A DNA stretch of 41,977 nucleotides, from positions 1 to 41,977 of the forward strand of contig JAURZI010000078.1 in NCBI GenBank assembly GCA_030653435.1, in the 5' to 3' direction. Below, piece after piece: positions 11,327-37,573 of the stretch (its first letter is position 1; each line of letters opens with the position of its first letter). This DNA is from Methylovulum sp. GTDB lineage: Bacteria; Pseudomonadota; Gammaproteobacteria; Methylococcales; Methylomonadaceae. Below the pieces are notes generated by a model that searched no databases, was not told the origin of the DNA, and saw only the letters and a program-made list of their open reading frames with translations. The position numbers and the translations under genes are program-made.

Positions 11327-11329
11327 GCG

Positions 11330-17772: not shown

Positions 17773-20079
17773 TTATATCGGCAATGTCGGGTCTATAGGT
17801 TCTGGAATGGCATTTGAATCGATAATGTAATCGCCAAAACGCTTGATATGGCTTGTGACGTAAGGACTTAAAGTTGCAACATCCTCGCGGTTTATCGGAA
17901 CCCCCTCTTCTTTGAGCATTCGCAGTATCCGCGTCTGATCTACCACATTCTGGAAGATAACGGCATTAGCCACCAGATCATTATACTTGATGACTTTTTC
18001 CTGCTCTTCGGGATCGTTGTCGGCGATAACGCCATCACCACCGAAAAACAGCCATTTGGAAAATCCGTTGTACGCTTCCACCTTATTTGTGGTCGCCGTA
18101 ATCTGTTCGCGTAATTCAATATCGGATATGTAATCCAAAAGGAAGAGGGTACGAACCACCCTGCCTAATTCCCTGAATGCCTGGTATAGGCGGTTTTTAC
18201 GGCTATAGTTGCCCAACTTGCGTAACAAGGTCGATGATGAAACCTTTCCGGCCTTGATCGACAGGACTACCCGCAGCAAATCTTTCCAATGGGTTTCGAT
18301 CAACTCCCAGTCGACGTCATCCTTGAACAGTATATCGATATGTTTGTAGGTAATGTCCTTGCCGGGCCGGAAAAATACCAGATCATGCCAATTTCGGATG
18401 CGGGGCATTAGTTTTATGCCCAACAAATAAGACAATGCAAACACCGGCGCCGACTGGCCTTGGGTATCGGCATGAACGGTATCAGGCTGTATGTCTGATG
18501 TATTTTGCAGCAAGCCTTCAATGATGTAAATGGCTTCCCATACCCCGCAAGGTATAAAATGGCTGAACAGCGCCACATAGGTGTCGGCAATATGGTGATA
18601 GGCAATGCCGCCATAACCGCCGTAGCGGATATGGTATTCCGCCAGTAGGTTTTGAACGTAGATGTCTAATTTCGTGCCGTCTGCGGCAACTGATTTTCCA
18701 GTGCCCCACAGTTTTGGCAGTTCAAACGTATGGTAGTGGTTGATAATGTCCTTAATCGCTGCATTTAATTTATTGGTATTGGCATGTCGGCGGTTGATGA
18801 AAGACAGCATGTGTGGTGTGACCGTACCGCGTAAATGACGTGAGGCTTGTGCTGGCCCTAGATTGCAACCATAGGTGAATGCGGTGAGGATATACCGCTC
18901 TCCAGGGTTTTCAATCTTGGGATCAGAACCTGATAGCGGCCCAAAATGACGATTCCATCCTGTCCAATGGGCAACATTGCAAAGCACGTCGATGACGTTA
19001 CGTTCATCCATCCGTTGCAGTAAAGCCGCTTCGAGCGCACGGGCCGAGGCTTTAGATTCGCGGGGTTCGTTCCGTTTCAGAATCGGCATGCCGCTTTCAT
19101 GGAGCCCTAGTGCTTTATTGTTCGGAAACCCTGCATCGACTTCTGCGGCTTTCTGGGTTAACACTTCACGCAGGTTGTTAACAAATGCCTGCGCGTTATT
19201 TTGTAAAGCCGTGTGTTGACAATAATCATCCACCAAGGGTTCGCATTCTTCCCAACTCAAAAGTTGTTCACGATAATCGGCATAGGCTTCCGAACCCCGA
19301 ATTGCCACATCTCCCGATTTTATTTCCGCAGCCAATGCCGAAAAGACGCACACTTCGAAGTGTTGGCGGTTGATTCGTTCGCCATCCTCGGTTTTCACCT
19401 GGACCGTGCGTTTCCAGCGCTCGTTTGTGAAAGAGAAATCCACCGTATCGTCGATCAAGACACTTTTTCGGTGCTCGTGCTTCAGCAAGACATCTAAAGC
19501 CTGCATCAGAGACTTGTCTTCCGTTGTCGAAATCATGGTCAACAACCGCAACATTCGGAATAATGTTGAGCGGTGGCTACGATAAAAACGCCACAGAAGA
19601 GGGAAATAGTTGTCACCGCTATAAGCGCTGATGGCCGCGCAATCGTCATGCAAGGCCGTAGCGCCGCCGCGTTTAGTCAGCAAAGTGCGTATGCTGCGCC
19701 CGGCCTCCTCATCTTCAGGCTGCGTTTCCAACACATCAATGACATCGGCCAGCGTTGCAACCAGATGCTCGGTTTTCTGGCGGAATTTGATGCGTAGCCG
19801 TTCCAGTTCATCTTTACCTCGTCGATGGATTTGGCTGATACGCTTGATGAACAGGTTGGCAAGATCGTCGCGGGCCTGGATGCGTGCACGATGGATCATG
19901 CTGAGGATCAGTACATACCGCTTTGGCGGCGAAAACTCCTTTATCTCAGCAGCATCCAGGGCCTTTGCTTCTGCGGCAAAATGCTTGATCTTGGCATAAG
20001 GAATATCCTGCAAATGCTGGTCGCTACCTACCGTATCGGATAGATTGACAATATGATCCAGCAAATCCTGTAGATGCAT
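17773..20079 (-). pseudogene. tnpA: Tn3-family transposase TnpA, C-terminal part (split by MITE)
   Basis: This 768-residue piece contains the catalytic part of a Tn3-family transposase: an aspartate in AADGTKLD (about 455), a second in VHADTQGQS (about 523), and a glutamate in NKVEAYNGFSKW (about 670). The N-terminal ~217 codons lie on the other side of a 253-bp MITE at 20098-20350. If the MITE and one copy of its 8-bp duplication are removed, the frame runs straight through (KQLPKR then SSLMHLQD) and gives a 984-residue protein. An internal ATG at 20079 could still start this fragment, but it would lack the DNA-binding N-terminus. Confidence 0.88.
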
Positions 20080-20089
20080 CAGGGATGAG

Positions 20090-20358
20090 CGTTTAGGGGT
20101 AGTGGGTCAAATCTGTTGATAATAAAAAGTATTAAAAATCAATAAGCTGTATCTTATTATTTTTCATTATTTTTGAATCTTAGAAAAAATATTGCTCGGA
20201 ATGCTGAATTCTTTATAGCTATTAACTTAAAAATCAAAATGTTACTTTTACCACCTATGTCTAGGAGCATATTCATCATCCTAGGTGATACTACCCTGAA
20301 CCTCAGGATTTATGCGGCTTGTAGCACAATAACAGGTTTGACCCACTACCCGTTTAGG
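20090..20358. mobile_element. 253-bp MITE with 8-bp target duplication inside tnpA
   Basis: The element at 20098-20350 has terminal repeats GGTAGTGGGTCAAAtCTGTT and GGTAGTGGGTCAAAcCTGTT (inverted, one difference). It is flanked by perfect direct repeats CGTTTAGG at 20090-20097 and 20351-20358. It encodes nothing evident and is AT-rich in the middle. The 8-bp duplication and GG-starting ends fit mobilisation in trans by a DDE transposase of an IS family with 8-bp duplications. The parental IS was not identified. Confidence 0.92.
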
Positions 20359-20988
20359 CAATTGTTTGATGGCAAAAAACAGGGATTTTTTTTGGGGATT
20401 AGTGCCGACTTCCAGCAAGGTATCGAGTTCTTTTCGCTCTGACGGCGATAAGCGTGTCAATACTGTCTCGAATATGCGGCTATTGGCCAGGGTACGAATT
20501 CGCCGTGAATGCCGGTCAAGCGTACTGAAGGCAGGTAGCTCGATACGCTGCCGCACCAGCTCTTCAATGGCAACGTTGATCAGGTCAGCCGGGTTATCCA
20601 TCACTTCGGCAGCGGTAGCCATGGCATCGCTGGCTACCCGCAGTCCATCATCATTCCAGGCCGCTACGCCTAAGTGTTGCCGGATAGCCTGATGATGCCG
20701 GTACAGTGTTTTTAAGTCAGAATAAACCGGTGAAACTTCGCTACTGATACCGCTGGCAGTACGGATATGCTGCACGATGTCCGAAGGTATAACCGCTACG
20801 TCCGGAAAGTAACCAAGCCGTTGAAAGGCCTTAAGCAGCAATAGGATACAAAACCGTGTCGGTTCTTTACGTGACAGGGTATTGGCAAAATGCAGCTCAT
20901 CCTCTTTTGGAGTGTAGAGCGCATCCAACTCATTGGCTAGCGGATTTCGCTTGAAGCGTGGATAAGCGGTACGTTCGATGGATGCCAT
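20281..20988 (-). pseudogene. tnpA: Tn3-family transposase TnpA, N-terminal part (split by MITE)
   Basis: The first ~217 codons are the DUF4158-type N-terminal region of a Tn3-family transposase (ERTAYPRFKRNPLANELDALYTP onward). After KQLPKR the reading frame enters the MITE and ends after about 20 foreign residues at 20281. It must be joined to 17773-20079 to rebuild the original gene. The start at 20988 is in the normal family position, facing the recombinase gene across a 266-bp regulatory gap. Confidence 0.88.
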
Positions 20989-22324: not shown

Positions 22325-23677
22325 TCATCCACGAATTTCCGCTCCTGCTCCTACAGCTCTGATATCTGCACACAAGCGTTCTGCTTGGTTTTTCGTAACA
22401 GAAGTAGCAATAACCGTGGGCACATTATTCAGTTTATTTTTAGCGTCTGATTGACTCATACCGGTAAACTTTCTCAAGGCCCTTATGATCTCGGTCTCCC
22501 TCGCTCCACCACTTGTCATCCATACATCCACGAGATTTTCTTCGACTGAACTGGTTCCAGACAAAAAGATATACGGATACCAATTAATATCTTTAACCTC
22601 TTTGAAATGCAATAACACATTTACTAGGTTTTCATCACCGCCTATTACCGTAGTTATATCGTCCTTCTCGCGATGATTTTTCGAAAGTAAATTCCTCAAT
22701 CCATTATCGCCTTTTATTAAACTTATATACGCGTCGGGCGCGCGCTGCTGGATCAATAACAAAAGCCCTAGTATCTCTTTATCAATATCTACATCATCTA
22801 ATGACTTTGCCAATGCATATGTAAGTATATAAGCGTTTATAAACCTTTTTATTTTTCTCGGATTGCCTTCCAACCCACCGACAAACAATTCTGCCACAGA
22901 AGACAATTCTGACGGCAAATGAGATTTAATATATTTTTCTAAATCCGCTTTCCCAATCGCAGGAACATTGAACGGCAATTGAATAAGTTTGTCCAAATAT
23001 TCTCCTTCATAACCATCAATCCCCTTAAAACTTGCCTTGATACTTTTCTCAACGATCACCCTGTCAATGCCGACAACATAAACACAACCCTCATGAGAAA
23101 GATACAATTTCAGCGAATCCAATATTTTAAGTATTGTGCTTGGACTGCATCTATCAAGGTCATCAATAAATATTACTAGCCTTTTAGTGCCGTTGCTGGT
23201 AATTAAATCTATAAGCTCACCAAACTTATCCTGCAACCTCGCCTGTTTCTCCCTCAATTCAAACATCTCTTCTTCGTATTGTGTTCCATACTCTTTTATG
23301 TCCTTAGCACTGATGCCTGTAAAAGTCTTAAGGACTGCTGCGCCTAAAGAAACACCAATCACACCAAGCAATTTTCTTACTGCCTGTTTTTTTTCTGCAC
23401 CATTTATATTTTTAACCATTGCATGCAATAGGGCTATCTCAGGGTTATCATCAAATTGATGAAACCAGGGATCGAACCAAATACTTTCTACGTTTTCCTT
23501 GCCTACTAAAGAGTCTTCCATAAGCCTCATGAGACTTGTTTTTCCAACACCCCAACTACCGTATATACCAACTACTAAAGGAGTCTTTGCGACCAAAACC
23601 GCATCAGTTAGAGCATTAGCTACTTTTTCCCTACTGAGCATGTCGACGTTCGAAGGCTCGTCATTGTGCAAATTCAT
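22325..23677 (-). CDS. KAP-family P-loop NTPase, last gene of the four-gene operon
   Basis: The 450-residue protein has Walker A GSWGVGKTS (about 40-48), a WFDPWFHQ segment, Walker B LVIFIDDLDRC (167-177) and IKRFINAY in the C-terminal helical part. All of these are typical of KAP NTPases, a STAND-related group often found in antiphage systems (for example QatA). One hydrophobic helix at about 102-120 may touch the membrane; the usual pair of inserted helices is not evident. The C-terminus has an extra GMSQSDAKNKLNN region, perhaps a small helical domain. A ribosome-binding site (AGAGAGTAG) precedes the start, 29 bases after the upstream stop. It is likely the energy-using switch of the system. 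Confidence 0.88.
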   Translation of the reverse strand: MNLHNDEPSNVDMLSREKVANALTDAVLVAKTPLVVGIYGSWGVGKTSLMRLMEDSLVGKENVESIWFDPWFHQFDDNPEIALLHAMVKNINGAEKKQAVRKLLGVIGVSLGAAVLKTFTGISAKDIKEYGTQYEEEMFELREKQARLQDKFGELIDLITSNGTKRLVIFIDDLDRCSPSTILKILDSLKLYLSHEGCVYVVGIDRVIVEKSIKASFKGIDGYEGEYLDKLIQLPFNVPAIGKADLEKYIKSHLPSELSSVAELFVGGLEGNPRKIKRFINAYILTYALAKSLDDVDIDKEILGLLLLIQQRAPDAYISLIKGDNGLRNLLSKNHREKDDITTVIGGDENLVNVLLHFKEVKDINWYPYIFLSGTSSVEENLVDVWMTSGGARETEIIRALRKFTGMSQSDAKNKLNNVPTVIATSVTKNQAERLCADIRAVGAGAEIRG

Positions 23678-23706
23678 TTTCTACTCTCTATTAAATTGAA
23701 TCAATA

Positions 23707-24786
23707 TCAGAATTTCATTTCTTCTGCCAAATGCAACTCAGTCTCTATGTACGACTTCAATGTCTTCATCGTGCTTTTTAGTGCGTCAAGATAATACTCA
23801 TTCCTGTCCTCCGAATCAATAGAGTTCCACGCACCTAAAAAAACCACACGCCCTACATCTGAATAACGAAAAAATAAATCTGAAATAGTGCCGAGTTGGA
23901 GGCTAATGTTTAAGTCGCTCAAATCAATGGGGGCAGCACCCCGAGCATCACCGCTCTCATTCGTAATAACCATGGACTTCACGGCGGTATCCGCATACGA
24001 GGGGGATATCCCCCTTTCCCCGGTAATGATCCCACGCATTTCGCAGAAATTCATTAGCTGCATTTTTATACTTAATGGAGCACTAGATCGGAAGTCACCA
24101 ATTCCTGTAGTTGATTTTCTTACTTCCGACTCTGGAATCGTTACGTCGAATCCTATGACAGTTATTCCATTCTTAGAGCCAATATCTTGATCGTTTGCAA
24201 GACCTCTAACGCCTAAGTAAACACCTAACGTATTCCTCATAGCCAAATACCATTCTCTCTGCGTCCTGCCCTTCGTAATTTCTTCGAGATGCCTTCCGCT
24301 TAGAAACAGTATTTTCAGTGTCTTCCTCATTCGGGAGCTCAGGACCTCACCAACAAAAACATTTATCCCTCCTAGAGTTTCGTCTGTGTATTTGATACCG
24401 GCTTTTCGCAGAATATTGCCGAATGTATCGTTGGTGTATCTTTCATCAACTAAAACAACCATAGAGTAATTCGTGATTACCGTATCTAGTCGGTCAAGCT
24501 TTTTTTCTCGAAGTCGTTCTACAAGCATTTCCGAAGTGATTTCCAATCCGTTTGTGAAGCCTATGCTACCCAATCCTTCTGGATCAACAATTTGCCGATA
24601 CTTATCGTTAAAATCAGCGATCATAGCATCCTTAATCAAACTTGATGCTTCTAAACATGTTTGATCTACATGACTAAGAACATCGGGCTTTTTCCCAGCT
24701 AATGACCTCTCATACTCACGTAAGAGTAGCAATATCGATTTGCAGCTATCCCGAGGATCTTCTGAGTTAATATAGTTCGGGTACAT
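23707..24786 (-). CDS. Unrecognised protein, third gene of the four-gene KAP operon
   Basis: I do not recognise this protein of about 359 residues. From an upstream ATG at 24801 it would be 364 residues and overlap the previous gene by 35 bases; the ATG at 24786 overlaps by 20. It looks soluble, with mixed alpha and beta content. Features include a helical N-terminus, a central region with VITNYSMVVLVDERYTND and GGINVFVGEVL, and a conserved-looking NGITVIGFDVTIPESEVRKSTTG block. The ISLQLGTISDLFFRYSDVGRVVFLGAW block may form a beta sheet. It has no zinc cluster or membrane helix. Its fixed place between the phosphoribosyltransferase-like and KAP genes suggests it is a core component, possibly sensor or effector. 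Confidence 0.8.
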   Translation of the reverse strand: MYPNYINSEDPRDSCKSILLLLREYERSLAGKKPDVLSHVDQTCLEASSLIKDAMIADFNDKYRQIVDPEGLGSIGFTNGLEITSEMLVERLREKKLDRLDTVITNYSMVVLVDERYTNDTFGNILRKAGIKYTDETLGGINVFVGEVLSSRMRKTLKILFLSGRHLEEITKGRTQREWYLAMRNTLGVYLGVRGLANDQDIGSKNGITVIGFDVTIPESEVRKSTTGIGDFRSSAPLSIKMQLMNFCEMRGIITGERGISPSYADTAVKSMVITNESGDARGAAPIDLSDLNISLQLGTISDLFFRYSDVGRVVFLGAWNSIDSEDRNEYYLDALKSTMKTLKSYIETELHLAEEMKF

Positions 24787-26479
24787 ACTTTGACACCCCA
24801 AGACTATAAAGTGGGAAGAATGACTCTATTGCTATGTCATTATTATGTTGATTTACATACATAAATGGCACAGCCGCAGCTGCTATTTTATCTAGGCCGC
24901 TCAATATCTTATACATCCCTCTTATCGAACCTCCTGTGAAGACAAGATCGTCCACCACAATACAATTACGGATTGGTGATTTCACTAAAGTCCTATACCA
25001 ATCTTGATTCTTTTCCGAATCTGTGAACCCAGTCTTTTCATGCGAAAAACGATTAATAGTAGATCTCGGGATAGGCACAGAATCCAAGCTCAAAATTAAT
25101 TCTAAATAGTACGCATACCACCCAGAGCCTTCGTTTCCTTCAGGATAAATAATAGTTAAGTCCGGTGGCAAGCCAAGCTTATGAATCAACTGGTCTACTT
25201 TGTAGGCTATAAATCCACCATTCCCCTTGATCAGGTTAGCGGAAATAACGGAATTAACGATTGGATTCTCTGGTACTCGATACTGGGGAGGATCATTTTC
25301 AATTCCTACACCGGAATCAAGTACCATTGACCAAAAATCCAGTGATCGAATGCCAGTGCTCGGATGTACATCAGGAAGTGATTCGAATGCTAAAGGCAGT
25401 TTACAAAGATCACACGGCATTTCCCCGATCCGGTGATAGTTCGCTGTCGAGATGTACTCTATAGAAACCTCGCGGTCGGCATTCTTCAATACCCTTGTAA
25501 ATTCTTGGCCAAGAGCAGACTCTTTAGTTTCATGATCATCATTTACTGTCGAAAGGATCGCAATTACAGAAGATGGGAAGATGTTTTTCTCGATCAGATA
25601 TTCTAACAACGTTTTCCCTGTATCGACAAAATCTACCACAATGTGGATATCATCAACATCAGGAACTGGAACAAACTCATTAGCCATGAGTACTTTACAA
25701 GGTGACAATTTTGACCACAGTGATGTAATTGCGGTTTCCAACCAAGGGGACCTTACCGAGTGGCACAAAACAATCGATCGCTCCCCAACAATTCTATGTA
25801 ATTTTATCCAAAGATAATCAGCAATCTCTCTAATACATCTAGATCCATCATAAAAGTGACGAAGGCAAACAGAAGCACTGCCATCATTTTTTGTAAAATG
25901 ACCTATTTGTCGTATTAACTTCTCCCTTATCCTATTTGCAAGTTCTTCTTTAGATAAGATTCTTTTTTCGCGTATTTCTTTTTCTGAAACATGCTCCGCA
26001 CCAGATGCAAAACCATTTTCATCCACTGTGACAACTTTAATCCCAGTTTTTTTTATATTATTTACTGCCGATAGCAGCAAATCACCAGGCGGAAGAGAAT
26101 CTTCTGATAAAATAACTATATAAGAAGGCTTAACCGAGAGGTTTTGAACTGCGTCATGCAACTCCTTAAGCATAATTAGATGTATTTTTCCTCTCAGCGT
26201 GGCTTTACTATATAAATCTATATCTACTACTAGAGCAGAGCCAACTGGAAATTTACCGTATTCTGAGAAAGTATCCCGTATTGTATTTTTTATCGCAGCC
26301 CCACCGACATTAACCTCATCGTTAGTAATAGGCTTGGTCTCGCCAGGTTTTATTCTGCATTTTTCTAGTTCTTGACCAAATACTCTTGAACACAACCAAC
26401 TATAAAAATTCAACTCGTTAGGCACAATCGGCACCGATACAGTGCTGCCGATTACGAACTTAAATGGATAGATATTCAT
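24767..26479 (-). CDS. Protein with two phosphoribosyltransferase-type domains
   Basis: The 570-residue protein contains two copies of the type I PRTase signature: IVVDFVDTGKTLL at about 280-292 and IVVDDLVFTGGSI at about 507-519. Each is the acidic pair plus TG loop that binds the ribose-phosphate of PRPP. Between them is a CDLC motif (Cys356, Cys359). The N-terminal ~190 residues form a separate region. PRTases swap a base for pyrophosphate on PRPP; in conflict systems such domains may make or break nucleotides. The second motif is closest to consensus. In the first, a Phe-Val pair replaces the second acidic residue, so that domain may be non-catalytic. Its start overlaps the upstream stop (ATGA). 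Confidence 0.82.
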   Translation of the reverse strand: MNIYPFKFVIGSTVSVPIVPNELNFYSWLCSRVFGQELEKCRIKPGETKPITNDEVNVGGAAIKNTIRDTFSEYGKFPVGSALVVDIDLYSKATLRGKIHLIMLKELHDAVQNLSVKPSYIVILSEDSLPPGDLLLSAVNNIKKTGIKVVTVDENGFASGAEHVSEKEIREKRILSKEELANRIREKLIRQIGHFTKNDGSASVCLRHFYDGSRCIREIADYLWIKLHRIVGERSIVLCHSVRSPWLETAITSLWSKLSPCKVLMANEFVPVPDVDDIHIVVDFVDTGKTLLEYLIEKNIFPSSVIAILSTVNDDHETKESALGQEFTRVLKNADREVSIEYISTANYHRIGEMPCDLCKLPLAFESLPDVHPSTGIRSLDFWSMVLDSGVGIENDPPQYRVPENPIVNSVISANLIKGNGGFIAYKVDQLIHKLGLPPDLTIIYPEGNEGSGWYAYYLELILSLDSVPIPRSTINRFSHEKTGFTDSEKNQDWYRTLVKSPIRNCIVVDDLVFTGGSIRGMYKILSGLDKIAAAAVPFMYVNQHNNDIAIESFFPLYSLGVSKYVPELY

Positions 26480-28329
26480 AATGCGCCACCGATCAATAAC
26501 TCCACAGTGAGAAGATTTCCGTTAAAAGTAGCCCAGTCCCCTGCGTGTTCTTCTATACGAGCTGAATACCTACTAACACGACCGTCTTCCGCTGTAGATA
26601 TTTCAGCTGAGATATTGCCCGTTCTAAATTTAACACTACCCTTAAAAACGTCGATTGCGCAGTTGAGGAGATAGGTCAATCCATACCCTGGCTCGGTTAT
26701 CTCTATTTCTTCATTTATAACTTCTTGTGACGGAATAAATGACTTTCTTTCAATATCTCTACTCACCCCAGGAAACAAGCAGGCCAGAAACAGCACGTAT
26801 CTTTCTGCGTCTTTTGAGAGCTCAATATCCGTAGCCAATTCAAATATTTGCTCACCGGATACTCTGTTCATGCGCACATCAAAAACGTAGTTTCGTTCCC
26901 TTTCCGCACCGGAGGATCTAACGTTTCGCCCTGCAAGTAGCGCGCTACCAATAGTATCGATCATAGATTGACCGTTATCCCAAAAGGTTATAGTTAGCCT
27001 TTTCTTTTCACGGTCTATCTTATTTTCGCAAAAAGACGCTGCTATTATTAGAGTTGCGCCAGGATGTCTTATTGCATTTGTCATCGCCTCAAATACAATT
27101 CTAGAAGAGACAAGCCCAGCCCCTTGCATCCCTTCAAGGTTCATAGCAAGAAACTCCTTAATTAGCGGCCCTTTCCAACGCTCTGTCTCCACAGTTGTTA
27201 TTGTTTCTCCCGCATATCTCCTATTTATCGGATAGGTAGATATCGAAAAAAACCGATCATTTATGAGCTGACCTTGTACCTTAGATAGCGCGTTGTTATA
27301 TGTAAAATTCTTAATGACCTTATTTTCACCAAAGAACTTGTCGATATCTTCATCAGTACAAAAATAAGAAAAAGGATAGCCAGTACAATCCTTTACAGCA
27401 TCATGAAACCCCCATAGCCTCATAAAATCTCTAACACTTTTATTCTCTGGCAAAAGCAATATTGTACGAAGTGCACGCGATGATCGCCACTCTATAAATG
27501 ACACTAATGCGACTAGTGCAGATACTTCTATGAAACGAACACTTCGGAGATCTAATGTTATGGTTCCCACTCTTGGGCCACAATTGATTGTTCTGCTATC
27601 AATCGCTCTCTCAATTTGAGAAAGCTGAACTTTAGTGGGCAATATCACTTTTGCCGAGCCAAAAGCCGAGATGGATCGAGCAACAAAAGCCGATACTTTA
27701 TCTCTATCTTTAAAGCCACTCGAATCTTCAACTCCTGTGTGACTATCAACACCACTTGGTCTGACAAAGTCAATTGCAGCGTGAACATTGGAATGGTCGA
27801 GCCCCCCGGCCAAAATAACTGGCTTTCTCGAATTGTTAACTAGCTGTTTACTTATTTCCCAGTCATGGGTTAACCCGGTAGCCCCATCAGCACCGGTAGT
27901 AGGATCGTGCGTATCTGTTATAAATGCATCAACTATCGTCTCGAATTTTTCTGCTTCTGCGAATAAGTTCTCAGTGCCAGTTTGCCGGACCACCAAGCTC
28001 TTAATTATAAAACTTCTCGGCTTTGCATTTTTTAACTTTACTAGCTCGGCAAAATCAATTGGCCCATGTAGCTGTATGTGCCCCACACCTAAGTAATCAC
28101 TTAGTTCGATAATGCTCTCAGCAGAATCGAGATAGGTTATTAGAACACCGAACACACCGGCAGGTAACCGGCTTATGACATCTCTAGCATCTTCCTCAGA
28201 AATATCTTCTTTATGCACTGGTAGCCGAAGCGGAAAGCCCAAAAATTTCACACCACAGTCAATTAGCAGTTCAGCTTCGCCCCAATCTCTTATTCCTGCC
28301 ACTTGTACATCTGGGAATGGTAAGTTCAT
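26476..28329 (-). CDS. TrpF-like / STAS-like / GHKL-ATPase fusion, first gene of the KAP operon
   Basis: This 617-residue protein appears to join three modules. Residues 1-225 resemble phosphoribosylanthranilate isomerase (TrpF): HIQLHG (84-89), an aspartate in FITDTHDP (Asp139), and PVILAGGL with GVDSHTGVE (170-200). The catalytic cysteine of the usual KICG motif is replaced (VAGI at 10-13). Residues 250-315 look like a STAS fold (GTITLDLRSVRFIEVSALV). Residues 380-617 are a GHKL ATPase with N-box VFEAMTNAIRH (412-422), DNGQSM (451-456) and GYGLTYLL (548-555). A GGAG ribosome-binding site precedes the start. A ligand-sensing ATP-dependent regulator is plausible; isomerase activity is doubtful. 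Confidence 0.85.
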   Translation of the reverse strand: MNLPFPDVQVAGIRDWGEAELLIDCGVKFLGFPLRLPVHKEDISEEDARDVISRLPAGVFGVLITYLDSAESIIELSDYLGVGHIQLHGPIDFAELVKLKNAKPRSFIIKSLVVRQTGTENLFAEAEKFETIVDAFITDTHDPTTGADGATGLTHDWEISKQLVNNSRKPVILAGGLDHSNVHAAIDFVRPSGVDSHTGVEDSSGFKDRDKVSAFVARSISAFGSAKVILPTKVQLSQIERAIDSRTINCGPRVGTITLDLRSVRFIEVSALVALVSFIEWRSSRALRTILLLPENKSVRDFMRLWGFHDAVKDCTGYPFSYFCTDEDIDKFFGENKVIKNFTYNNALSKVQGQLINDRFFSISTYPINRRYAGETITTVETERWKGPLIKEFLAMNLEGMQGAGLVSSRIVFEAMTNAIRHPGATLIIAASFCENKIDREKKRLTITFWDNGQSMIDTIGSALLAGRNVRSSGAERERNYVFDVRMNRVSGEQIFELATDIELSKDAERYVLFLACLFPGVSRDIERKSFIPSQEVINEEIEITEPGYGLTYLLNCAIDVFKGSVKFRTGNISAEISTAEDGRVSRYSARIEEHAGDWATFNGNLLTVELLIGGAL

Positions 28330-29385: not shown

Positions 29386-30894
29386 TCAACCCTCATAAAC
29401 ATCATCCTGCATAATCAAAAACAACACCCAAGAAAACTCTCCGGTGCTGATTTTTGACCCGCAATAACCGCATTCGGCGGTTTGCCCCATATTGTCGGCG
29501 GGTGCGCCGCATTGAGGGCAACTGGTCAGGCTATACGTTGAAGTGTGGGCGGCTTTACCCGTGCGGCGGACGAATGTCCAGTATTCGCTATAACTGCGGC
29601 GGTTGCGTTTGGAACCGCCGATGATTTTGCCATTGGAATCTTCGGTGTAATCGAAACATGAGGCAAAAATTCTCACGGTGATGGCTTCGTAATATTTATC
29701 CAGATCGATTTTGGCGGGCACGACTTGGCTGATGGTGATGTCGTCCAAACGGTTATGCCAATCATGCTCGGCGTATAAAGCCAGCCAAAATGAATTGGCT
29801 TCATACAAACGATCTGACAACAAATGCCGCACACCTTGCCAATCGCGCTTGCTCCAATGTTCGTAAATGCTCAGGAAATAGGCTTTCACGATGTCATCGG
29901 CAAAGGGTCGCCAAAAACTGTCCCAATCCGGTAATGATTGCTGTTGGATGAAACATTGCATTTGTTCCGCCAAGTCGTCCTGCTTGATGGTCAGGCGTTG
30001 TGTGCCTTGTTCCTCGGCATAAGCAACCAAATCACTCGCCGCTAAGGCAGTCGCCCGAAGTACCACGCGCTTGCCTAAATACCATTGTTTTTCACCTTTA
30101 TTGATGACCGTGCCGCAATGTCCGCATTCGCCGGAATCAGTGAAGTGCGCGGGTGCACCGCATTGTGGGCAGCATAAGGTTTGCATTTTGTCAGGTTCGG
30201 CGGACAGCAAGCCTTTTTGCCGATAAAACAACCAGCGTTCGGTGACGGCGTAGCGCGTGGCTTTGTTTTGTTGATGAAGGGTGTAATTGGCATCGATGAC
30301 TAAGCTGATGCTTTCGGTATCCATGCCTTGGGTGCTGATGCTTTCCCATTGGATACCATTAATGACGATCTCGTTGACCGTCCACAACGCAGCCTTTTCA
30401 AAATGCTGTTGCAGTTCGGTGCTGAGGAAGGGGCTGATATAGCTGTACTCAGGATGAGTGGAGTAGCCGTAATACTTGGTGTATAGCGAATGGACAAAGT
30501 CGATAAATATAATGGCTGAGAAGTTGGGGTCGTTTTGTTTGAGCAAGTCCAATGCTTGTTTTATAGTGCTTTGTTGCCGTGCCTTGTTAATAATCGTCGG
30601 GGCGGCAACAAAGGATTGTGTGGCGTTTTGGTATTTGAAAATGATGACGATGATTATCACTAAAATAACCAAAACAACGAATAAAGTCGCGGGATTACTG
30701 TTACCTGAACCCATGCTATGGCTAGCACCATTCGAGAAAGAAGGTCTGTAGGAAAATGAACTTGAACTATGTGAATGGGAGCTAGATGAGCTATGTCCCG
30801 AACTGGAATGCCCTCCGCCAGGCCGTGCTTCAGCAAAGTTAAAACAGGTCATAAGACTCAGCAATAACAACCAAATAAAAACCATCGCTTTCAT
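29386..30894 (-). CDS. Zinc-ribbon membrane protein with Tim44-like region
   Basis: The 502-residue protein has a signal peptide (about 1-23), a Ser/His-rich low-complexity linker (about 27-65) and one strong membrane helix (about 70-87). A cytoplasmic part follows that resembles a Tim44-like domain, then a zinc ribbon (CPQCGAP..CGHCG near 243-260), a second alpha/beta region and a second zinc ribbon (CPQCGAP..CGYCG near 462-482). Such proteins occur next to TPM-domain and SPFH-domain genes and may form a membrane quality-control or stress module. Its start overlaps the upstream TPM gene stop (ATGA), so they are one operon. The function is otherwise unknown. Confidence 0.75.
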   Translation of the reverse strand: MKAMVFIWLLLLSLMTCFNFAEARPGGGHSSSGHSSSSSHSHSSSSFSYRPSFSNGASHSMGSGNSNPATLFVVLVILVIIIVIIFKYQNATQSFVAAPTIINKARQQSTIKQALDLLKQNDPNFSAIIFIDFVHSLYTKYYGYSTHPEYSYISPFLSTELQQHFEKAALWTVNEIVINGIQWESISTQGMDTESISLVIDANYTLHQQNKATRYAVTERWLFYRQKGLLSAEPDKMQTLCCPQCGAPAHFTDSGECGHCGTVINKGEKQWYLGKRVVLRATALAASDLVAYAEEQGTQRLTIKQDDLAEQMQCFIQQQSLPDWDSFWRPFADDIVKAYFLSIYEHWSKRDWQGVRHLLSDRLYEANSFWLALYAEHDWHNRLDDITISQVVPAKIDLDKYYEAITVRIFASCFDYTEDSNGKIIGGSKRNRRSYSEYWTFVRRTGKAAHTSTYSLTSCPQCGAPADNMGQTAECGYCGSKISTGEFSWVLFLIMQDDVYEG

Positions 30895-31514
30895 AAATCC
30901 ACATCCAAATCATTAGGCAGTTCGTTGATGTCATTTGCAATAGGTGGCAAATAACGGTTAAACACGGGCTGGCTTTTTTCCAATCGGGCGATTAGCGCAT
31001 CTAACGGCTTGCGTTCACGAAAAATACCCTGAAAATCAACGCGTAAATCTTGCCATTCCGAAGCGGGCAAGGCCATTTCCGCGCCTTTGTCTGCCAGTAA
31101 AACCACCCGTTTTTCTAACCACGACACATAAACCAACATACCCATTTTGGCTTGGGTATGTTGAATGCCCCCTTTTTGAAAAATCGCCCGCGCCATGATC
31201 TCGACGCTTTTTTCCAATCGTGCTTTTTTAATGCTTAAGCGTGTCAGCAAGGGCAGATGAGCGAGTGCAAAACCGGACAAAAATGCGGCGATAGGTGTGG
31301 CATACACTATTTCATCGTTAAATAATTCGGGTGCGAACATTACGTAGGTAAAGCCTAACCAAGCACCAAAAATCCCCCAAATCCAAGCAATGTCAAGGTA
31401 ATCCGCCGAGCGTGGACGCAACACTACGACCATTTCAATTTGGGAGTTTTTTTCAATGAGCTTAATGGTTTCCCAAAGCTGTGTTTGCAGTTCTGTTGTT
31501 AAGGCTTTTTTCAT
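30891..31514 (-). CDS. TPM-domain membrane protein
   Basis: From the ATG at 31514 the protein has 207 residues. An N-terminal TPM (TLP18.3/Psb32/MOLO-1) type segment (LWETIKLIEKNSQIEMVVVLRPRSADY) is followed by two membrane helices (about 44-92). The second TPM-like half then contains the characteristic VSWLEKRVVLLADKGAEMALP. TPM proteins in bacteria often sit beside zinc-ribbon or LemA-type membrane proteins, with unclear function. The longer open frame reaching 31682 overlaps the divergent SPFH gene and is not protein-like at its N-terminus. The gene is coupled to the zinc-ribbon protein gene downstream. Confidence 0.82.
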   Translation of the reverse strand: MKKALTTELQTQLWETIKLIEKNSQIEMVVVLRPRSADYLDIAWIWGIFGAWLGFTYVMFAPELFNDEIVYATPIAAFLSGFALAHLPLLTRLSIKKARLEKSVEIMARAIFQKGGIQHTQAKMGMLVYVSWLEKRVVLLADKGAEMALPASEWQDLRVDFQGIFRERKPLDALIARLEKSQPVFNRYLPPIANDINELPNDLDVDL

Positions 31515-31572
31515 AGGTCTTAGGCACCGTAGGCTATAATCACAATTTTTTACGCTAGTGAGGAATCCAACA

Positions 31573-32595
31573 ATGGGACTATTTGACGGTTTAAAACGCC
31601 AATTACGGTCGGTGATCGAATGGGAAAATCCAGCACCAAACGCCTTGTTTGAACAATGGACCGACAACGGCGATGAAATCAAAAACGCTTCAACCTTAAT
31701 CGTCGGTCCAGGCCAAGGCTGTATTTTTGTTTACCAAGGCAAAGTGCAAGCAGTTTACCAAGACGAAGGTTCGGTCAATCTCAAAACCGATAATATCCCA
31801 TTTTGGACGACCATCACCAAATTCATGCAGTTTTTTGAAAGCGAGCATAAGGTCGGCATTTATTTTTTCCGCAAGACCGTCATTCTCGATCAAAAATGGG
31901 GAACAACGTCGTTAATCAAATACTTAGACCCTACTTACAAGTTTCCGGTAGGTCTCAGGGCGTTTGGTAATTATAGTTACCGTATCAAAGAAGCCGGGAG
32001 TTTTTTCGTTAATGTCGTAGGTAGTCATGGTGTGTTTACTACCGAAACCATGCGTAGCGTCATTGTCTCGCGGCTCAATCAACCATTAGCGGATTTTCTC
32101 GCCACCAGCCATTTTGGTTATCTTGATATTGATGCCAACCGTGAGGAAATTGCCGAAGGCGTGCGCGAAAAAATGGCGGCGATATTTGCCGATCTGGGAT
32201 TTGAAATCACCGACTTTAGAATCGAAGGCACGGACTTTGACGAGGAAACCTTAAAACGCATCAACCGCATCGCCGATATGACCGCCGAAGCACAAGCCGC
32301 GCAAGCTGTGGGTTTGGATTATGCAAAAATTCAGCAACTGGAAGCTTTGCGGGAAGCCGCGCGTAACGAAGGCGGCGGGGCGGGAATGGGCATGGGTTTA
32401 GGTGCGGGTATCAGTTTTGGGCAAAACATCGCCCAATCTATGAATCCCAACATGACAGCGTCAACTCCAGCATCGACAACTGCTGCTGTTGATCCAGCGG
32501 AAAAATTGGCGCAATTGAAAAAACTGTTTGAAGCAGAATTGATTACCGCTGATGAATACGCAGCTAAGAAAAAGGCAATTCTTGACGCGTTTTGA
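31573..32595 (+). CDS. SPFH-domain protein with C-terminal SHOCT motif
   Basis: The 340-residue protein starts MGLFDGLKRQLRSVIEWEN with GAGGA just upstream. It has an SPFH/prohibitin-like domain (about 30-240), a Gly/Met-rich linker (GAGMGMGLGAG), and a C-terminal SHOCT motif (EKLAQLKKLFEAELITADEYAAKKKAIL), a short domain often linked to oligomerisation. This architecture matches bacterial proteins annotated as SPFH or virion-core-like. It is divergent from the TPM/zinc-ribbon operon across only 58 bases, so the three genes probably share regulation. It is likely a membrane-surface scaffold; there is no membrane helix, so the location is inferred from the family. Confidence 0.88.
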   Translation: MGLFDGLKRQLRSVIEWENPAPNALFEQWTDNGDEIKNASTLIVGPGQGCIFVYQGKVQAVYQDEGSVNLKTDNIPFWTTITKFMQFFESEHKVGIYFFRKTVILDQKWGTTSLIKYLDPTYKFPVGLRAFGNYSYRIKEAGSFFVNVVGSHGVFTTETMRSVIVSRLNQPLADFLATSHFGYLDIDANREEIAEGVREKMAAIFADLGFEITDFRIEGTDFDEETLKRINRIADMTAEAQAAQAVGLDYAKIQQLEALREAARNEGGGAGMGMGLGAGISFGQNIAQSMNPNMTASTPASTTAAVDPAEKLAQLKKLFEAELITADEYAAKKKAILDAF

Positions 32596-32771: not shown

Positions 32772-34376
32772 TTATACTTGATTAATTACACATCGATTCT
32801 CTGAATTTGCAATAAGTAGTATTGGTTTCATTGATTGCTCGCAGAAATCATACACAAGCATATCTGCATGATGACTGTCAAAAGCTTGGCCGAAGAAGAC
32901 ACATGCGGCATTCGACGCGCATGGGAAAAGGTGAATTTTACTCACAGACTTCTTGTCTTTTAAAAAGTGCATTAGTCCTTGCACACTACTAGTAAAAGCA
33001 CACCCATCGTCCGGATGGCCTAATGCACCATTACCCATATACTCAGGATATGCCTTAATAATAATGTGTTTTGCGCCAATTGACTCAGCAATTTCCTGTC
33101 GAGCTCTTATCAAGCTTTCAGGTTCTGCTGTTAATGCTAAAGTGATTAAGACTTCATTCTCGCTATCGGCTAAGTCTTCCAATCCGTTAATGGAGTAAAA
33201 ACTTCCTATGGGTTTTTCTAGCGGCCAGCACCATTGACCACTATCCCTATATTTGAGCATAGGGATAATATTATTTTTGTTCCCGAGCATTGCACCGAGC
33301 GCAATCAAATACGGCATCAATCCGAATGCAAATAGCCCGGCCCTATATCGAGAGGAATGCGTTTGACTTAGAATTTTTTCAGCCGTAATCGAAACACTGT
33401 GTCTAAGAACTTGCTGCGCAACTTCCGGGTTTGTTTCCCTCAATATCGTCTCATTGTCACTTATGTCATTTAATTGAGAGTGCATACGGCAACGGATAGG
33501 GGCAAGCGATTGAGCAATTTGTAAATTTGATGGTGCGGAAATTACTTGACGATGAACGGGCCAAAGTACAGAAAATACAGGAATGGGTTGATAGCCGAGT
33601 CCATCCAAGAGATTGTTAGCAACAGCGCAAAACTCTCTTCGCATTTCCGAAAGGCGATAGGCAGGGTAATCTGCTGCTGCAACTTTATCAATTAAGCGAT
33701 GATGCTTATCGCATAGTAGTAATATGTTGCCAGGATCATCAGACAGCTTTTCAGATAGTGCAATTACACCTCTAGCACCTTGCTCCGAGGAAGCAATATT
33801 ATGGGCCAAGTAAGAAAAGTTCCCTTCCGTATTGGTAAGATCGTCAATACCAAGGTTTTGCCCACACCCAGCAAACATACATCTTCCGTGACTATCGAGC
33901 ATTACTTTTCGTTTGGTATCAGCAGAAAATGAATCCCCTCGACCTACTTTTTTTGAGTTTTTCTCAATCCGATCAAAAAAAACTCTAATATCTTCAAGAG
34001 TAAATTTTGTAGTTTGACCTTGAACTCTACTCCAAATATTATTTATTTTTTCTGTTGATTGTATTTCTTCTTGACTAAATACGTTACCCTGATAACAGCA
34101 AAATAGAATTTGGCCATTATTTCTAGCTAAAAATTCAATTGCCTTAACGCTATCATTAACGGATAAGCAAAATCTCAGTATCGATAGCACATGATCATCA
34201 TGCAGCAGCAATATTAAAATAGCTTTTACACCTTCATCAATTAGAATCGCTACATCCGACCACTCAGAAGTAGATGACACTAATCTGATATGAGTTTCAA
34301 CGAGCGCCAAGTCTTCGATTGGGGCATGCAAAGCTTGATTCATTAAGTTTTTAGTACTGTTATCCATGATGATCAC
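32772..34376 (-). CDS. cap5: CBASS effector: HNH nuclease with SAVED domain (Cap5-like)
   Basis: This 534-residue effector would degrade DNA when its SAVED domain binds the cyclic nucleotide made by the CD-NTase. The HNH region is at about 150-235, with Cys166 and Cys171, His192 (LAHNI), Asn217, Cys222 and His225-His226 (LLCDKHHRLID). The SAVED domain fills about 270-534, ending with IHLFPCASNAACVFFG and DMLVYDF. Unlike the usual ~400-residue HNH-SAVED proteins it has an additional ~145-residue N-terminal region. The GTG start shares bases with the upstream stop; an ATG at 34367 is an alternative. It is the last gene of the operon. Confidence 0.9.
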   Translation of the reverse strand: MIIMDNSTKNLMNQALHAPIEDLALVETHIRLVSSTSEWSDVAILIDEGVKAILILLLHDDHVLSILRFCLSVNDSVKAIEFLARNNGQILFCCYQGNVFSQEEIQSTEKINNIWSRVQGQTTKFTLEDIRVFFDRIEKNSKKVGRGDSFSADTKRKVMLDSHGRCMFAGCGQNLGIDDLTNTEGNFSYLAHNIASSEQGARGVIALSEKLSDDPGNILLLCDKHHRLIDKVAAADYPAYRLSEMRREFCAVANNLLDGLGYQPIPVFSVLWPVHRQVISAPSNLQIAQSLAPIRCRMHSQLNDISDNETILRETNPEVAQQVLRHSVSITAEKILSQTHSSRYRAGLFAFGLMPYLIALGAMLGNKNNIIPMLKYRDSGQWCWPLEKPIGSFYSINGLEDLADSENEVLITLALTAEPESLIRARQEIAESIGAKHIIIKAYPEYMGNGALGHPDDGCAFTSSVQGLMHFLKDKKSVSKIHLFPCASNAACVFFGQAFDSHHADMLVYDFCEQSMKPILLIANSENRCVINQV

Positions 34377-34858
34377 GATTCCATAATCAATTTTGTAAAA
34401 CCAAAGCTAGTTCGGACGAACACACGAATCTCCTTAGTCCCGACAATTACGAAAAATAACTGTCTGCCGGGATTTTTTCCAATGCAAGACAACCAATCCA
34501 TCTTGTCGATTAGTGAAGGCGTAGGTATTAGTTCTGGATGTGTGTGCCAAGTACCCAAATAAATTGATGTACCGCCTGATTCAACAAAAGCTAGGTCAAC
34601 AGCTTTTTGATGATTTCTGTCTCGCAACAAGAAACTATATCTTGTGCTTCTGTCGTTGGGAAATGGAGTGGTTATAGATTCGACCCAGTACTCATCTTTG
34701 ATTTCCGAGCAAGAGCCTATGATTACCCCAAATTTCTCGTGATCCCTTGCGTTGATCTGTCTGTGGTTTTTCCATACTGCCAGCGCGTCTTTGGAAATGT
34801 TCAATGAGATGCCACCATTTTTAAAGATTGCGTTTTCATCACCCATGGCAGATGTCAC
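34373..34858 (-). CDS. cap3: CBASS JAB/JAMM isopeptidase (Cap3)
   Basis: The protein of up to 161 residues is a Zn-dependent protease of the JAB/JAMM type. Glu41 lies in EKFGVIIGS, and the HxH..D motif is in GTWHTHPELIPTPSLIDKMD (His105, His107, Ser115, Asp118). In type II CBASS, Cap3 removes the CD-NTase from its conjugation partners, opposing Cap2. The start is ambiguous: the ATG at 34858 overlaps the cap2 end by 20 bases and the ATG at 34846 by 8. Its stop overlaps the effector start. Gene order and motifs leave little doubt about the assignment. Confidence 0.92.
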   Translation of the reverse strand: MTSAMGDENAIFKNGGISLNISKDALAVWKNHRQINARDHEKFGVIIGSCSEIKDEYWVESITTPFPNDRSTRYSFLLRDRNHQKAVDLAFVESGGTSIYLGTWHTHPELIPTPSLIDKMDWLSCIGKNPGRQLFFVIVGTKEIRVFVRTSFGFTKLIMES

Positions 34859-36539
34859 AATCTTCGTTATATAGCGGTAAGATTTGTAACGATTTATCGA
34901 AAGCAGTATATCTGTGAGTCACCGAAAATCCACGAGATACTACGTCAGAACAATCGCCTTTCCAACTGACTTTCGAAGAAGATGTGATTTTCCTTAGAAG
35001 GGTACCAATCGCGAGGTTTGTGGCAATTAAAGCTGTTTGTGCTGCACTGACTGAATTGTAAGGCAAAAACAATTCTCCACATCCGGCATGATTTACGGTC
35101 AAGTTCTGATCAGTTTCTAAAAAATTCAAATTTGACGAAAGCCCACGCGCACCTGTCTGCAAATCGACGTATGCACACCGCAAACACCCGTTGGCATTTT
35201 GTAGATCAAGGACTGCATGACCACCAATTCCGTATCCTTCTAACCACGTATTAATGACTGGTGTTTTAATATGATTCTGAACCAGAAAATCGTGAAAGAG
35301 ACGTTCATGCGTAGGAGAGCCGATAGCGATGACAATTAAATCAAATGAATTCAGATGATTTGTGTTTCTTAAGTCAAGAAGTTTTCTAATCTCGTACTGA
35401 GTTTTGATCCATGGGAATTTACTATCAAGTTCAAGGCTAAGCGCGATTGCTTTATTACAACCAAGAAAATGATCACTCAATACATGGCGATATATGTTGT
35501 CCATCGTGTAAATATCTGGGTCACATAAAACCATGTTGCCTATACCTGCGGCCCCCAATTTGTAGACAATTTCACCGCCAACAGACCCACAACCAACCAT
35601 AAGCACCGATTTTCCTTCCAATCCAAGGTTTGCGCCACTACGGGGCATAATCTTTTCTTTGTTGAATATCTTTACCCTAATAGGAGAAATACTCCAGTTC
35701 TTTAAACTTTCTTCATTTTTCGGTAATGATTTTTTTCCATTGCCTTTAATGCTTAACTGTATTCCAAACCAAGTCCGACCAGATGGAGTTTGAGCATTAA
35801 ATATTAACCAGAATCGTTTCCCCTTTTTTTGTTCAAATTTAGAAGAAATGTAATTATTTTTAATCGTTTGCAGATACCATTCGCCAAGAAGCTCTGATGT
35901 TGTCGGAGCTGGCTTCAGATTATTTAAAGGTATTATGAAACCTTCGCCCGCTATAGATCGATTTTTATCCTGTTGTGCAATATATGAAAATTCAGCCAGA
36001 GATGATGCACAGTGGGTAATCCCTAGATACTTAGACCCAAAACCCCATTTCCGGCCAGAAACCGGACTGAACACCTGAACTTCTTCCAAGTCACCACTAG
36101 CAGCGCATATAAAATCCGCACTGGAATCGTCGCAAATTCGCAACCAATTTGCATAAAATTCTCGAAGCAACTCCTCTGTATTCCACGCAACCTTTAATAT
36201 TGTCTTTGTTAGGAGGTTGATATGGCGCTCTAACGATTCTTGAAATGCGAGTTTTGGTTGTTCAAAATTGACTGATACCGAATCCTGATCACCAACACAA
36301 ACACTTCCAAGGTCAAATTTTTCTAACGGTAGAACATGTGCGAGATTTCCATACTGGCTAAAATTACCTAAGAAAAATGTTGGTAAGCAGTCAATTTCAT
36401 CAACACAAAAGTGGATTAATTTGAGGTTTCCGCCCTCAAAGTCGTGGCTCACCACTAAACAATCTAAGTCACTAACATTTTCCAACGTTGCTAAGTAACC
36501 TTGATCACAAAGATGGCTAACTATTTCCTGATAATTCAT
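34839..36539 (-). CDS. cap2: CBASS E2-E1 fusion conjugating enzyme (Cap2)
   Basis: The 566-residue ubiquitin-like machinery protein primes the CD-NTase by conjugating its C-terminus to targets. The N-terminal ~160 residues are E2-like, with a candidate catalytic Cys81 in GSVCVG. The C-terminal half is an E1/ThiF adenylation domain with the nucleotide loop VGCGSVGG (315-322), Asp340, Arg351 and a candidate catalytic Cys487 in HAGCGELFLPY. Zinc cysteines are Cys452/Cys455 (CLRC) and Cys561/Cys564 (CDIC) at the very end. The ATG overlaps the CD-NTase stop (ATGA), so translation is coupled. Confidence 0.94.
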   Translation of the reverse strand: MNYQEIVSHLCDQGYLATLENVSDLDCLVVSHDFEGGNLKLIHFCVDEIDCLPTFFLGNFSQYGNLAHVLPLEKFDLGSVCVGDQDSVSVNFEQPKLAFQESLERHINLLTKTILKVAWNTEELLREFYANWLRICDDSSADFICAASGDLEEVQVFSPVSGRKWGFGSKYLGITHCASSLAEFSYIAQQDKNRSIAGEGFIIPLNNLKPAPTTSELLGEWYLQTIKNNYISSKFEQKKGKRFWLIFNAQTPSGRTWFGIQLSIKGNGKKSLPKNEESLKNWSISPIRVKIFNKEKIMPRSGANLGLEGKSVLMVGCGSVGGEIVYKLGAAGIGNMVLCDPDIYTMDNIYRHVLSDHFLGCNKAIALSLELDSKFPWIKTQYEIRKLLDLRNTNHLNSFDLIVIAIGSPTHERLFHDFLVQNHIKTPVINTWLEGYGIGGHAVLDLQNANGCLRCAYVDLQTGARGLSSNLNFLETDQNLTVNHAGCGELFLPYNSVSAAQTALIATNLAIGTLLRKITSSSKVSWKGDCSDVVSRGFSVTHRYTAFDKSLQILPLYNEDCDICHG

Positions 36540-37573
36540 GCGCCTTGAGAAGTTCCTACTGCACCTGAGGAAGAAAATATGGCTTTCCTAGTACTTGCAG
36601 AATTGTTTGATTTTTCAGGTACAGGAAAGTCATCCCCAAACACTTCTCTTAAAATTTTGCACTTTTCAATTTCATCAGTCTCCGAAATCGCATCCTGCAA
36701 TTTTCCTTCAAGAGTACTTAGTTTATTTCTGAACTGAGTTCCAGTGTTTACACTACTTCCATCGAAAATGTCCCGCCAAGGTTTCTTTGGAAGAAATACC
36801 GATACTTGATATTGGCAGTTTGCTTTTGCAGTAAAATAACCATGAATCAACATTGCTGACACAGTTGTTTTAAGCGCGATTAAATCATCAGGTTTCCCAT
36901 CACTGTCAAATGACGGCGAAAAGCACTGTTTGGCCATGACCGTAATTCCAATGGAATGTATCTTTGCCGCAACACCCTCACTGAACTTTTCATCGCGCCA
37001 GCGCTTTAAGTAGCGAACTAGGCGGTTGAATTGACTTAGTTTGTCGCTTGCCGATCCAATGTATGATGACTTGTCTTTAATCCAATCTTTCAAACCCCTT
37101 GGGTCGGCCTCCTCCCATTTTCTGTTGGATTCATCAGCGTTTCTTTTCCCTATAGCCAGCTCATATTCAGCACCATTCTTTCTATAAATAGGGAAGTCTA
37201 TATGAAGATTTTCATTCTTGTAATCCGCGGTAACACAAGGCTTCTTAATTTTGGCATTTTGAAAACCTCGTTTTTCCAGAACATTCTCACATAGTGTAAT
37301 TTTTGGTTTAACACAGTTATCTGGAGCATTATCGCAATCAATAACGATAGCTCTGTCAATGTCGAAATCACCAGATTTTTTGAGAATGGCCGTATCGGTA
37401 GAAATTGATCCTTGAATAAAGTCCTCAATTACCGGATATCCAGCATCTTTGAAAGCATTACGAACCTCGTTAGTTATGCTATCGTCTCGTTCCCTTGCCG
37501 TCTTATAAGCATCATCCTGCTTCGATAACTTAATAGCATCGTGAAAAGTGTTGAAATGTTTTTGTATACTCAT
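36536..37573 (-). CDS. cdn: CBASS CD-NTase (cyclic oligonucleotide synthase)
   Basis: The 345-residue cGAS/DncV-like nucleotidyltransferase would make a cyclic oligonucleotide signal after phage infection. The active site shows QGSIS (Gly55, Ser56), the acidic cluster GDFDID (Asp69, Asp71, Asp73) and a further Asp126 in HIDFP. The product cannot be read from sequence; HNH-SAVED partners in studied systems respond to cyclic di- or trinucleotides. The C-terminal tail is flexible (SSSGAVGTSQGA), suitable for Cap2-mediated conjugation, although it ends in Ala rather than the Gly best known in Cap2 substrates. The gene leads directly into cap2. Confidence 0.94.
   Translation of the reverse strand: MSIQKHFNTFHDAIKLSKQDDAYKTARERDDSITNEVRNAFKDAGYPVIEDFIQGSISTDTAILKKSGDFDIDRAIVIDCDNAPDNCVKPKITLCENVLEKRGFQNAKIKKPCVTADYKNENLHIDFPIYRKNGAEYELAIGKRNADESNRKWEEADPRGLKDWIKDKSSYIGSASDKLSQFNRLVRYLKRWRDEKFSEGVAAKIHSIGITVMAKQCFSPSFDSDGKPDDLIALKTTVSAMLIHGYFTAKANCQYQVSVFLPKKPWRDIFDGSSVNTGTQFRNKLSTLEGKLQDAISETDEIEKCKILREVFGDDFPVPEKSNNSASTRKAIFSSSGAVGTSQGA

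Follow-up and report, generated by a model that had tools for sequence, protein, structure and literature searches.

What does a bacterium gain from an operon that joins a TrpF-like barrel, phosphoribosyltransferase (PRTase)-type motifs and a KAP NTPase? Such an operon, with the gene order P1-P2-P3-P4, lies on the minus strand at 22325-28329 of the window, that is, the whole stretch of DNA analysed here (41,977 nucleotides, contig JAURZI010000078.1 of Methylovulum sp.). An initial annotation, made from the sequence alone, had taken it for a defence unit with a phosphoribosyl theme that resembles no known system by gene order; P1-P3 gave no PADLOC match at E 0.1. The four open reading frames (ORFs) are as placed there, as are the 4-bp overlap of P1 and P2, the overlap of P2 and P3 (35 bp from the TTG start, 20 bp from the ATG start) and the 29-bp gap between P3 and P4. 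Partners listed below are those of locus L069, in a metagenome-assembled genome (MAG) of an uncultured member of the Alteromonadaceae.

26476..28329, minus strand: P1, ORF of 617 residues with a TrpF-like domain, a STAS-like region and a GHKL-type ATPase domain; full-length partner 62% identical
24767..26479, minus strand: P2, ORF of 570 residues with PRTase-type motifs; partner 48% identical, further relatives in gene B of loci L093 and L096
23707..24801, minus strand: P3, ORF of 364 residues from TTG (24801) or 359 residues from ATG at 24786, without family match; partner 32% identical
22325..23677, minus strand: P4, ORF of 450 residues with a KAP NTPase and a ribosomal L7/L12 C-terminal domain; partner 54% identical over 449 residues

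Co-occurrence in the same order elsewhere had been proposed as a check, and L069 provides it: all four genes are present in this order with spacing resembling that of the window, each aligned over nearly its full length. Between window and L069, identities at codon positions 1/2/3 are 0.72/0.79/0.36 for P1, 0.60/0.74/0.32 for P2, 0.51/0.58/0.32 for P3 and 0.65/0.81/0.39 for P4. Third positions (0.32-0.39) are far less conserved than second positions (0.58-0.81), and all four genes therefore look constrained as proteins. The operon is real, conserved and rarely found, and with the same gene order in L069 and protein-level constraint in all four genes it is more than a chance assembly. Our best guess, held with slightly less than even confidence, is a rare conflict system, probably horizontally moving and most likely anti-phage and growth-arresting, in which P1 and P2 would form a switch that releases an effector; the phosphoribosyl chemistry first suggested is shifted towards sensing.

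Relatives of P2 and of the C-terminal part of P1 recur together with nucleoside phosphorylases, a reuse of the core that the initial annotation overlooked, as it did the L7/L12 domain of P4. Profile A8, built from P2 and its L069 partner, found locus L093 in genome G776 (E 9.8e-8), where gene A (3703-4830; HATPase_c 1.4e-4, no PRAI match) directly precedes gene B, which is P2-like in its first part and closes with a nucleoside phosphorylase (PNP_UDP_1 9.4e-11). With hhalign, P2 aligned with L093 gene B at E 2.5e-12 over 482 columns and P1 with L093 gene A at E 8.4e-12 over 311 columns, each value coming from one pair of shallow profiles. A three-row profile matched 2 of 48 genomes of the class of G776, namely G776 itself and G835, the latter at E 2.6e-4, a level also reached by a housekeeping PRTase in another search. 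At the G835 locus, L096, gene A (4753-6135) again stands directly before gene B (6138-8471), and the phosphorylase is a separate gene (8450-9673; PNP_UDP_1 2.7e-11). The two B proteins are 24% identical over 638 columns (E 8e-22); the match between the A proteins is weak (6.6e-6). Both phosphorylases match the PADLOC model for the PN-superfamily effectors of cyclic-oligonucleotide-based anti-phage signalling systems (CBASS), at 2.3e-22 for L093 and 4.5e-18 for L096. A cyclase, however, is absent from the short L093 contig and from the L096 genes examined, and the window operon has no phosphorylase. The core pair thus stands in four genomes with two different arms, which makes it a core with exchangeable partners, the latter putative effectors.

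P1 contains the following regions:

27679..28308, minus strand: TrpF-like (PRAI) domain, residues 8-217, with Ala at the TrpF cysteine position (Pfam PRAI 7.6e-20; PDB 1lbm 5.9e-20)
27397..27612, minus strand: STAS-like stretch, residues 240-311 (Pfam STAS E 0.03, below cut-off; phrog_3364 1.8e-8 over 226-460)
26605..27117, minus strand: GHKL-type ATPase region, about residues 405-575, with N-box EAMTN, WDNG and GYGL (Pfam HATPase_c E 0.012, below cut-off)

The three-part reading of P1 is thus firm for the PRAI barrel, which lies above its Pfam cut-off, whereas the STAS and GHKL parts fall below theirs, HATPase_c doing so in the L069 partner as well. The GHKL motif columns E192, N196, H200, D229, G231, G326 and G328, numbered by the P1 fragment in the four-row alignment A15, are identical in all four rows. 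The STAS-GHKL family phrog_3364 was matched in 60 of 143 genomes of the class and is too general to inform; when the C-terminal part of P1 was compared with the ORFs of the phrog_3364 loci, its own locus alone matched. As for the barrel, it shares the TrpF fold by sequence and is 46-50% identical to the best plasmid "phosphoribosylanthranilate isomerases", but a true TrpF was rejected. The cysteine of the KICGI motif is catalytic in TrpF; P1 carries Ala in its place, misses the TrpF equivalog cut-off (best NCBIfam score 101.2 bits against 215) and is fused to the STAS/GHKL part, and the host has a separate TrpF of its own (E 6.4e-44), which keeps the cysteine and lies beside an ORF that is presumably trpB.

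P2 contains two motifs:

25610..25639, minus strand: first PRTase-like motif VVDFVDTGKT, residues 281-290, read by eye, no family match
24926..24958, minus strand: second PRTase motif VVDDLVFTGGS, residues 508-518, inside a Pfam Pribosyltran match (469-526, E 1e-4, below cut-off)

Of the "double PRTase" originally claimed, the second motif has its sub-threshold Pfam match (type I PRTase scores of 22.1 bits for P2 and 23.8 bits for its L069 partner, cut-off 26.3), whereas the first is recognised by no family. The motifs read VLDFIDSGST and VIDDIVITGKS in L069; their counterparts are ICSMVATGKK and VILEEFHCGGTT in L093, and LWDLIDDGKD and VLAEEFSCSGTT in L096. The phosphoribosyl pyrophosphate (PRPP) motif DDxxxTGG is therefore present in P2, has TGK in L069 and is eroded in L093 and L096, and because the motifs vary or erode across these four loci, PRPP catalysis is, as judged from the motifs, not a constant of the core. 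An AlphaFold2 model of P2 had a mean pLDDT (predicted local distance difference test) of 44 and was fair for about residues 1-180 alone. Since the TrpF cysteine is replaced by Ala, the host has a separate TrpF, the first P2 motif goes unrecognised and the motifs of the relatives are eroded, ligand binding or sensing is likelier than catalysis for the TrpF-like and PRTase parts. The initial interpretation is partly supported: it keeps its four-gene unit, unmatched in PADLOC for P1-P3, its gene order, repeated in a second organism, and its defence-type neighbours, while the theme of phosphoribosyl enzymes is weakened. PRTase-type proteins in likely conflict operons have parallels in Pfam PRTase-CE (PF24390), which matches the L069 P2 at E 0.0017, below the family cut-off, and in the PRTase system of DefensePredictor, a likeness by description, from a figure legend that names a PRTase (PMC13092281).

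P3 gave no match in profile searches (Pfam, PADLOC and other families) or PDB searches, and shows no relation to the phosphorylase of L096 (hhalign probability 0.2%). A single-sequence search of the relatives' genomes, which can miss distant copies, found P3 in its own genome alone (1/101), and its AlphaFold2 model (mean pLDDT 36) was unusable. Because P3 has been seen solely with the KAP version of the operon, it may be an adaptor or a second effector.

P4 consists of two recognisable domains:

22811..23629, minus strand: KAP NTPase domain, residues 17-289 (Pfam KAP_NTPase 1.6e-37; 129.8 bits, cut-off 20)
22334..22531, minus strand: ribosomal L7/L12 C-terminal domain, residues 383-448 (Pfam Ribosomal_L12 1.7e-10; 41.5 bits, cut-off 25.9)

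The KAP assignment agrees with the initial annotation, and the best PADLOC models for P4 are QatA, PDC-S20 and PifA, which relates it to KAP NTPases of likely conflict operons. Its L7/L12 domain recurs in L069 (Pfam 2.1e-13), can be aligned over its full length with its E. coli counterpart and, as profile A10, matches 1ctf at 1.8e-8. Both complete copies carry I, R, R and K at the positions of I69, K70, R73 and K84 of E. coli L7/L12, which we take to be translation-factor contacts. According to passages of PMC4592705, the L12 C-terminal domain interacts with translation factors and is proposed to recruit EF-Tu and EF-G. No further KAP-L7/L12 fusion was seen among the matches listed for 185 genomes or among 25 of 194 plasmid records; in two plasmid records the match spans 80% or more of the P4 query and ends at residue 373.

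The setting described initially, near a CBASS and among transposons, is borne out. A CBASS set (32772-37573, minus strand; PADLOC models for a SAVED-HNH effector, JAB, E1-E2 and a cyclase) lies 4,442 bp from P1, and the operon is flanked by Tn3-family transposase ORFs and a resolvase on one side and by a transposase fragment on the other. Membership of the operon in CBASS was rejected: P1-P4 include no cyclase, and the neighbouring CBASS is a separate set. In L069, one flank holds integrase-like ORFs (Pfam 6.5e-4 and 2.2e-4, below cut-off), and the other ParE (1.7e-14) and ParD (3.8e-9), followed by a 570-residue protein (10895-12607, 973 bp after P4) that along almost all of its length matches the PADLOC candidate PDC-S62 (E 4.4e-129) and has a SWIM zinc finger match.

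Several other features of the window were recorded. Beside the CBASS set stands a divergent gene with a WYL domain (38267-39208, plus strand; Pfam 8e-13), similar in kind to the CBASS-associated WYL regulator named in the part of PMC9122588 that was available. Between operon and CBASS, 29386-32595 encodes Tim44-like, TPM-domain and SPFH/SHOCT proteins. The Tn3-family transposase at 17773-20988 (minus strand) appears as two ORFs, with the DUF4158 part at 20281-20988 and the DDE part at 17773-20079; in another, at 922-3927 (plus strand), a single ORF encodes both. Scans for promoters and terminators found no more than in shuffled sequence, Rfam gave no match, and repeats were unremarkable.

The system is rare. 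Profile A8 matched 1 of 311 genomes of the order (its own) and, among 398 genomes of the phylum, two (its own and G776). A four-row profile matched 1 of 143 genomes in the class (its own) and, at E <=0.01, 4 of 299 in the phylum: its own, G776, G835 and G803. The last (E 1.9e-4) was rejected as a relative, the matched ORF being an ordinary PRTase (Pfam 2.3e-17, above cut-off), presumably an adenine PRTase. A single-sequence search with P2, of a kind that can miss distant copies, found 1 of 369 genomes in the class (its own). In viral contigs, exact-peptide scans with P2, P3, P1 and P4 gave 3, 4, 3 and 9 candidate stretches, none of them confirmed; A13 confirmed 0 of 17, and motif-bait alignments 0 of 148, 0 of 40 and 1 of 64, the single match (L063) being 23% identical to P4, with no core profile matching its ORFs. 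The motif-bait scan of genome contigs confirmed 0 of 26, a zero that means little, as the scan missed L069, which is present there. Plasmids contained no match to P2, P3, the L069 P2, L093 gene A or part of L093 gene B, and phages none to P2 or L096 gene B. No description of the four-gene set was seen among the open-licence papers listed, some of them consulted by passages.

On these grounds, the operon would work as follows. P1, as a GHKL-type protein, and the PRTase-fold P2 would together act as a switch responding to a bound ligand that resembles a nucleotide or phosphoribosyl compound, with the TrpF-like barrel as an added ligand-binding module that is no normal TrpF, its activity presumably lost with the cysteine. 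The effector arm would vary by lineage, being the nucleoside-phosphorylase domain in L093 and L096, and P3 with the KAP-L7/L12 protein in the window. Infection would change the level of the ligand, upon which the core would release its effector; in what is the least certain step, the KAP NTPase would be brought to translation factors by its L7/L12 domain, and growth would stop. Ligand sensing, ATP-driven switching by the GHKL region, effector release, attack on translation and phage defence are all predictions from sequence comparison. We favour a conflict system because of the complete second operon, the protein-level constraint, the recurrence of the core pair with CBASS-effector-like phosphorylases, the matches of P4 to defence KAP models, the defence-type genes beside both complete copies, the I, R, R and K residues of the L7/L12 domain, and the rarity. 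A more specific version is doubtful: an immune switch of a new class, in which a phosphoribosyl metabolite disturbed by phage would be read jointly by the PRTase-fold protein and by a GHKL ATPase whose fused TrpF barrel is catalytically dead. The switch would then set free a KAP motor, which would dock on EF-Tu/EF-G via a captured ribosomal-stalk domain and shut down translation, with sister systems using a nucleoside phosphorylase instead.

A number of points weigh against the conflict system. Complete copies number only two. The hhalign comparisons were made between shallow profiles, the E-value that led to G835 is no better than that of a housekeeping PRTase, the A proteins of L093 and L096 match weakly, and neither gene A nor gene B of L096 has a Pfam match, so that the fourth GHKL row has no Pfam family. 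L093 lies on a 5.7-kb contig, and L096 between leuS/rubrerythrin-like genes and rpe/M48 peptidase genes, with a phage-lysozyme ORF further on and no known defence gene seen among the neighbours examined. Neither the role of P3 nor the translation target has direct support.

The rival that survives best, which we nevertheless consider unlikely, is a unit for regulation or stress response that does not target phage, in which a GHKL/STAS partner switch senses phosphoribosyl metabolites and controls the NTPase. GHKL and STAS parts are also components of anti-sigma partner switches, which favours it, as do the housekeeping-like surroundings of L096; the patchy occurrence, the defence-type and mobile genes around both complete copies and the effector-type phosphorylases of the relatives speak against it. 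It is also improbable that the second PRTase site of P2, together with the TrpF-like domain, produces a phosphoribosylated messenger that activates P3 and the KAP NTPase, as in CBASS. That site was counted as intact in the window and, despite its TGK, in L069, and TrpF-like genes adjoin a uracil-PRTase gene in pigment-type clusters too, but this explanation has to contend with the absent TrpF cysteine, the erosion of both motifs in L093 and L096, and a P2 score under the Pfam PRTase cut-off.

The third rival arises from the relatives of the TrpF-like domain. Alignment A7 (the TrpF-like part of P1 and three plasmid proteins) was used to scan genome contigs; among 147 candidate stretches, 24 could be confirmed, representing 23 loci, one of them L069 with its complete operon. 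The TrpF cysteine position is Ala in all 26 rows of this subfamily (the window, all 23 loci, L064 and L065); outside it, four of five rows have Cys, the host's own TrpF among them, and L100 does not. In a tree of 28 rows, which leaves out 3 of the 26 and drew a long-branch warning from treekit, the subfamily forms one side of a branch (99/98), and the two fused domains of P1 and L069 pair (100/99) and then group with six standalone genes (100/98). Neighbours were compared with the genes of a Streptomyces plasmid cluster: 16 of the other 22 loci combine the TrpF-like gene with matches to Upp, to EamA and to one or more of non-ribosomal peptide synthetase (NRPS), PsuG and alkene reductase, and six (L070, L071, L072, L076, L083, L091) have no such neighbours. 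The Ala-for-Cys subfamily is thus otherwise found mainly in indigoidine/minimycin-like clusters, whose TrpF-like genes (45-52% identical to the P1 domain at the 16 loci) differ in being single-domain genes of NRPS/PsuG/Upp clusters, whereas the P1 domain is fused.

In L064-L067 and the 16 loci, from Actinomycetota and Pseudomonadota, the Cys-less TrpF-like gene of these clusters directly precedes a uracil-PRTase-like gene, and a set of this kind is also present on the C. aurimucosum plasmid pET44827. The standalone TrpF-like genes L071:3915-4613 and L072:8989-9684 are nearly identical (end branches 0.078 and 0.055), and their MAGs are labelled Deltaproteobacteria and Calditrichaceae, which implies either recent transfer or a binning error. 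In the available passages on pET44827, orf18 is compared with indigoidine NRPSs, and the TrpF-like orf20 is named by homology and guessed to help activate the NRPS (PMC2830990); those on minimycin clusters describe an NRPS, a C-glycosynthase and the uracil PRTase MinD, which serves self-resistance (PMC8724604). The Cys-less subfamily is now defined, and these passages hold no tested role for it in indigoidine/minimycin-like clusters. Both the 16 of 23 loci in such clusters and the self-resistance by MinD would suit an operon that senses, or protects from, a minimycin-like C-nucleoside antibiotic, with the TrpF-like domain binding its phosphate. We regard this as quite improbable, as nothing in L069 matches the NRPS, PsuG or Upp genes, the core is kept in L093 and L096 although L093 gene A and L096 genes A and B lack a PRAI match, and KAP and phosphorylase arms fit simple resistance poorly. 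A divergent QatABCD system, finally, is largely refuted and very hard to maintain: P4 does match the QatA models (PADLOC 1.3e-45; NCBIfam 1.7e-54), but its score of 185.6 bits falls far below the cut-off of 600, it does not reach the length of the models and its C-terminal end is the L7/L12 domain, and P1-P3 match no Qat model and so provide no QatB, QatC or QatD partners.

If the operon is the conflict system that we favour, it would add an immune core not listed in PADLOC-DB 2.0.0, in which metabolic enzyme folds (TrpF, PRTase) have been turned into sensors and an NTPase effector is aimed by a ribosomal-stalk domain; the general rule would be a GHKL and PRTase-fold core with a variable effector.

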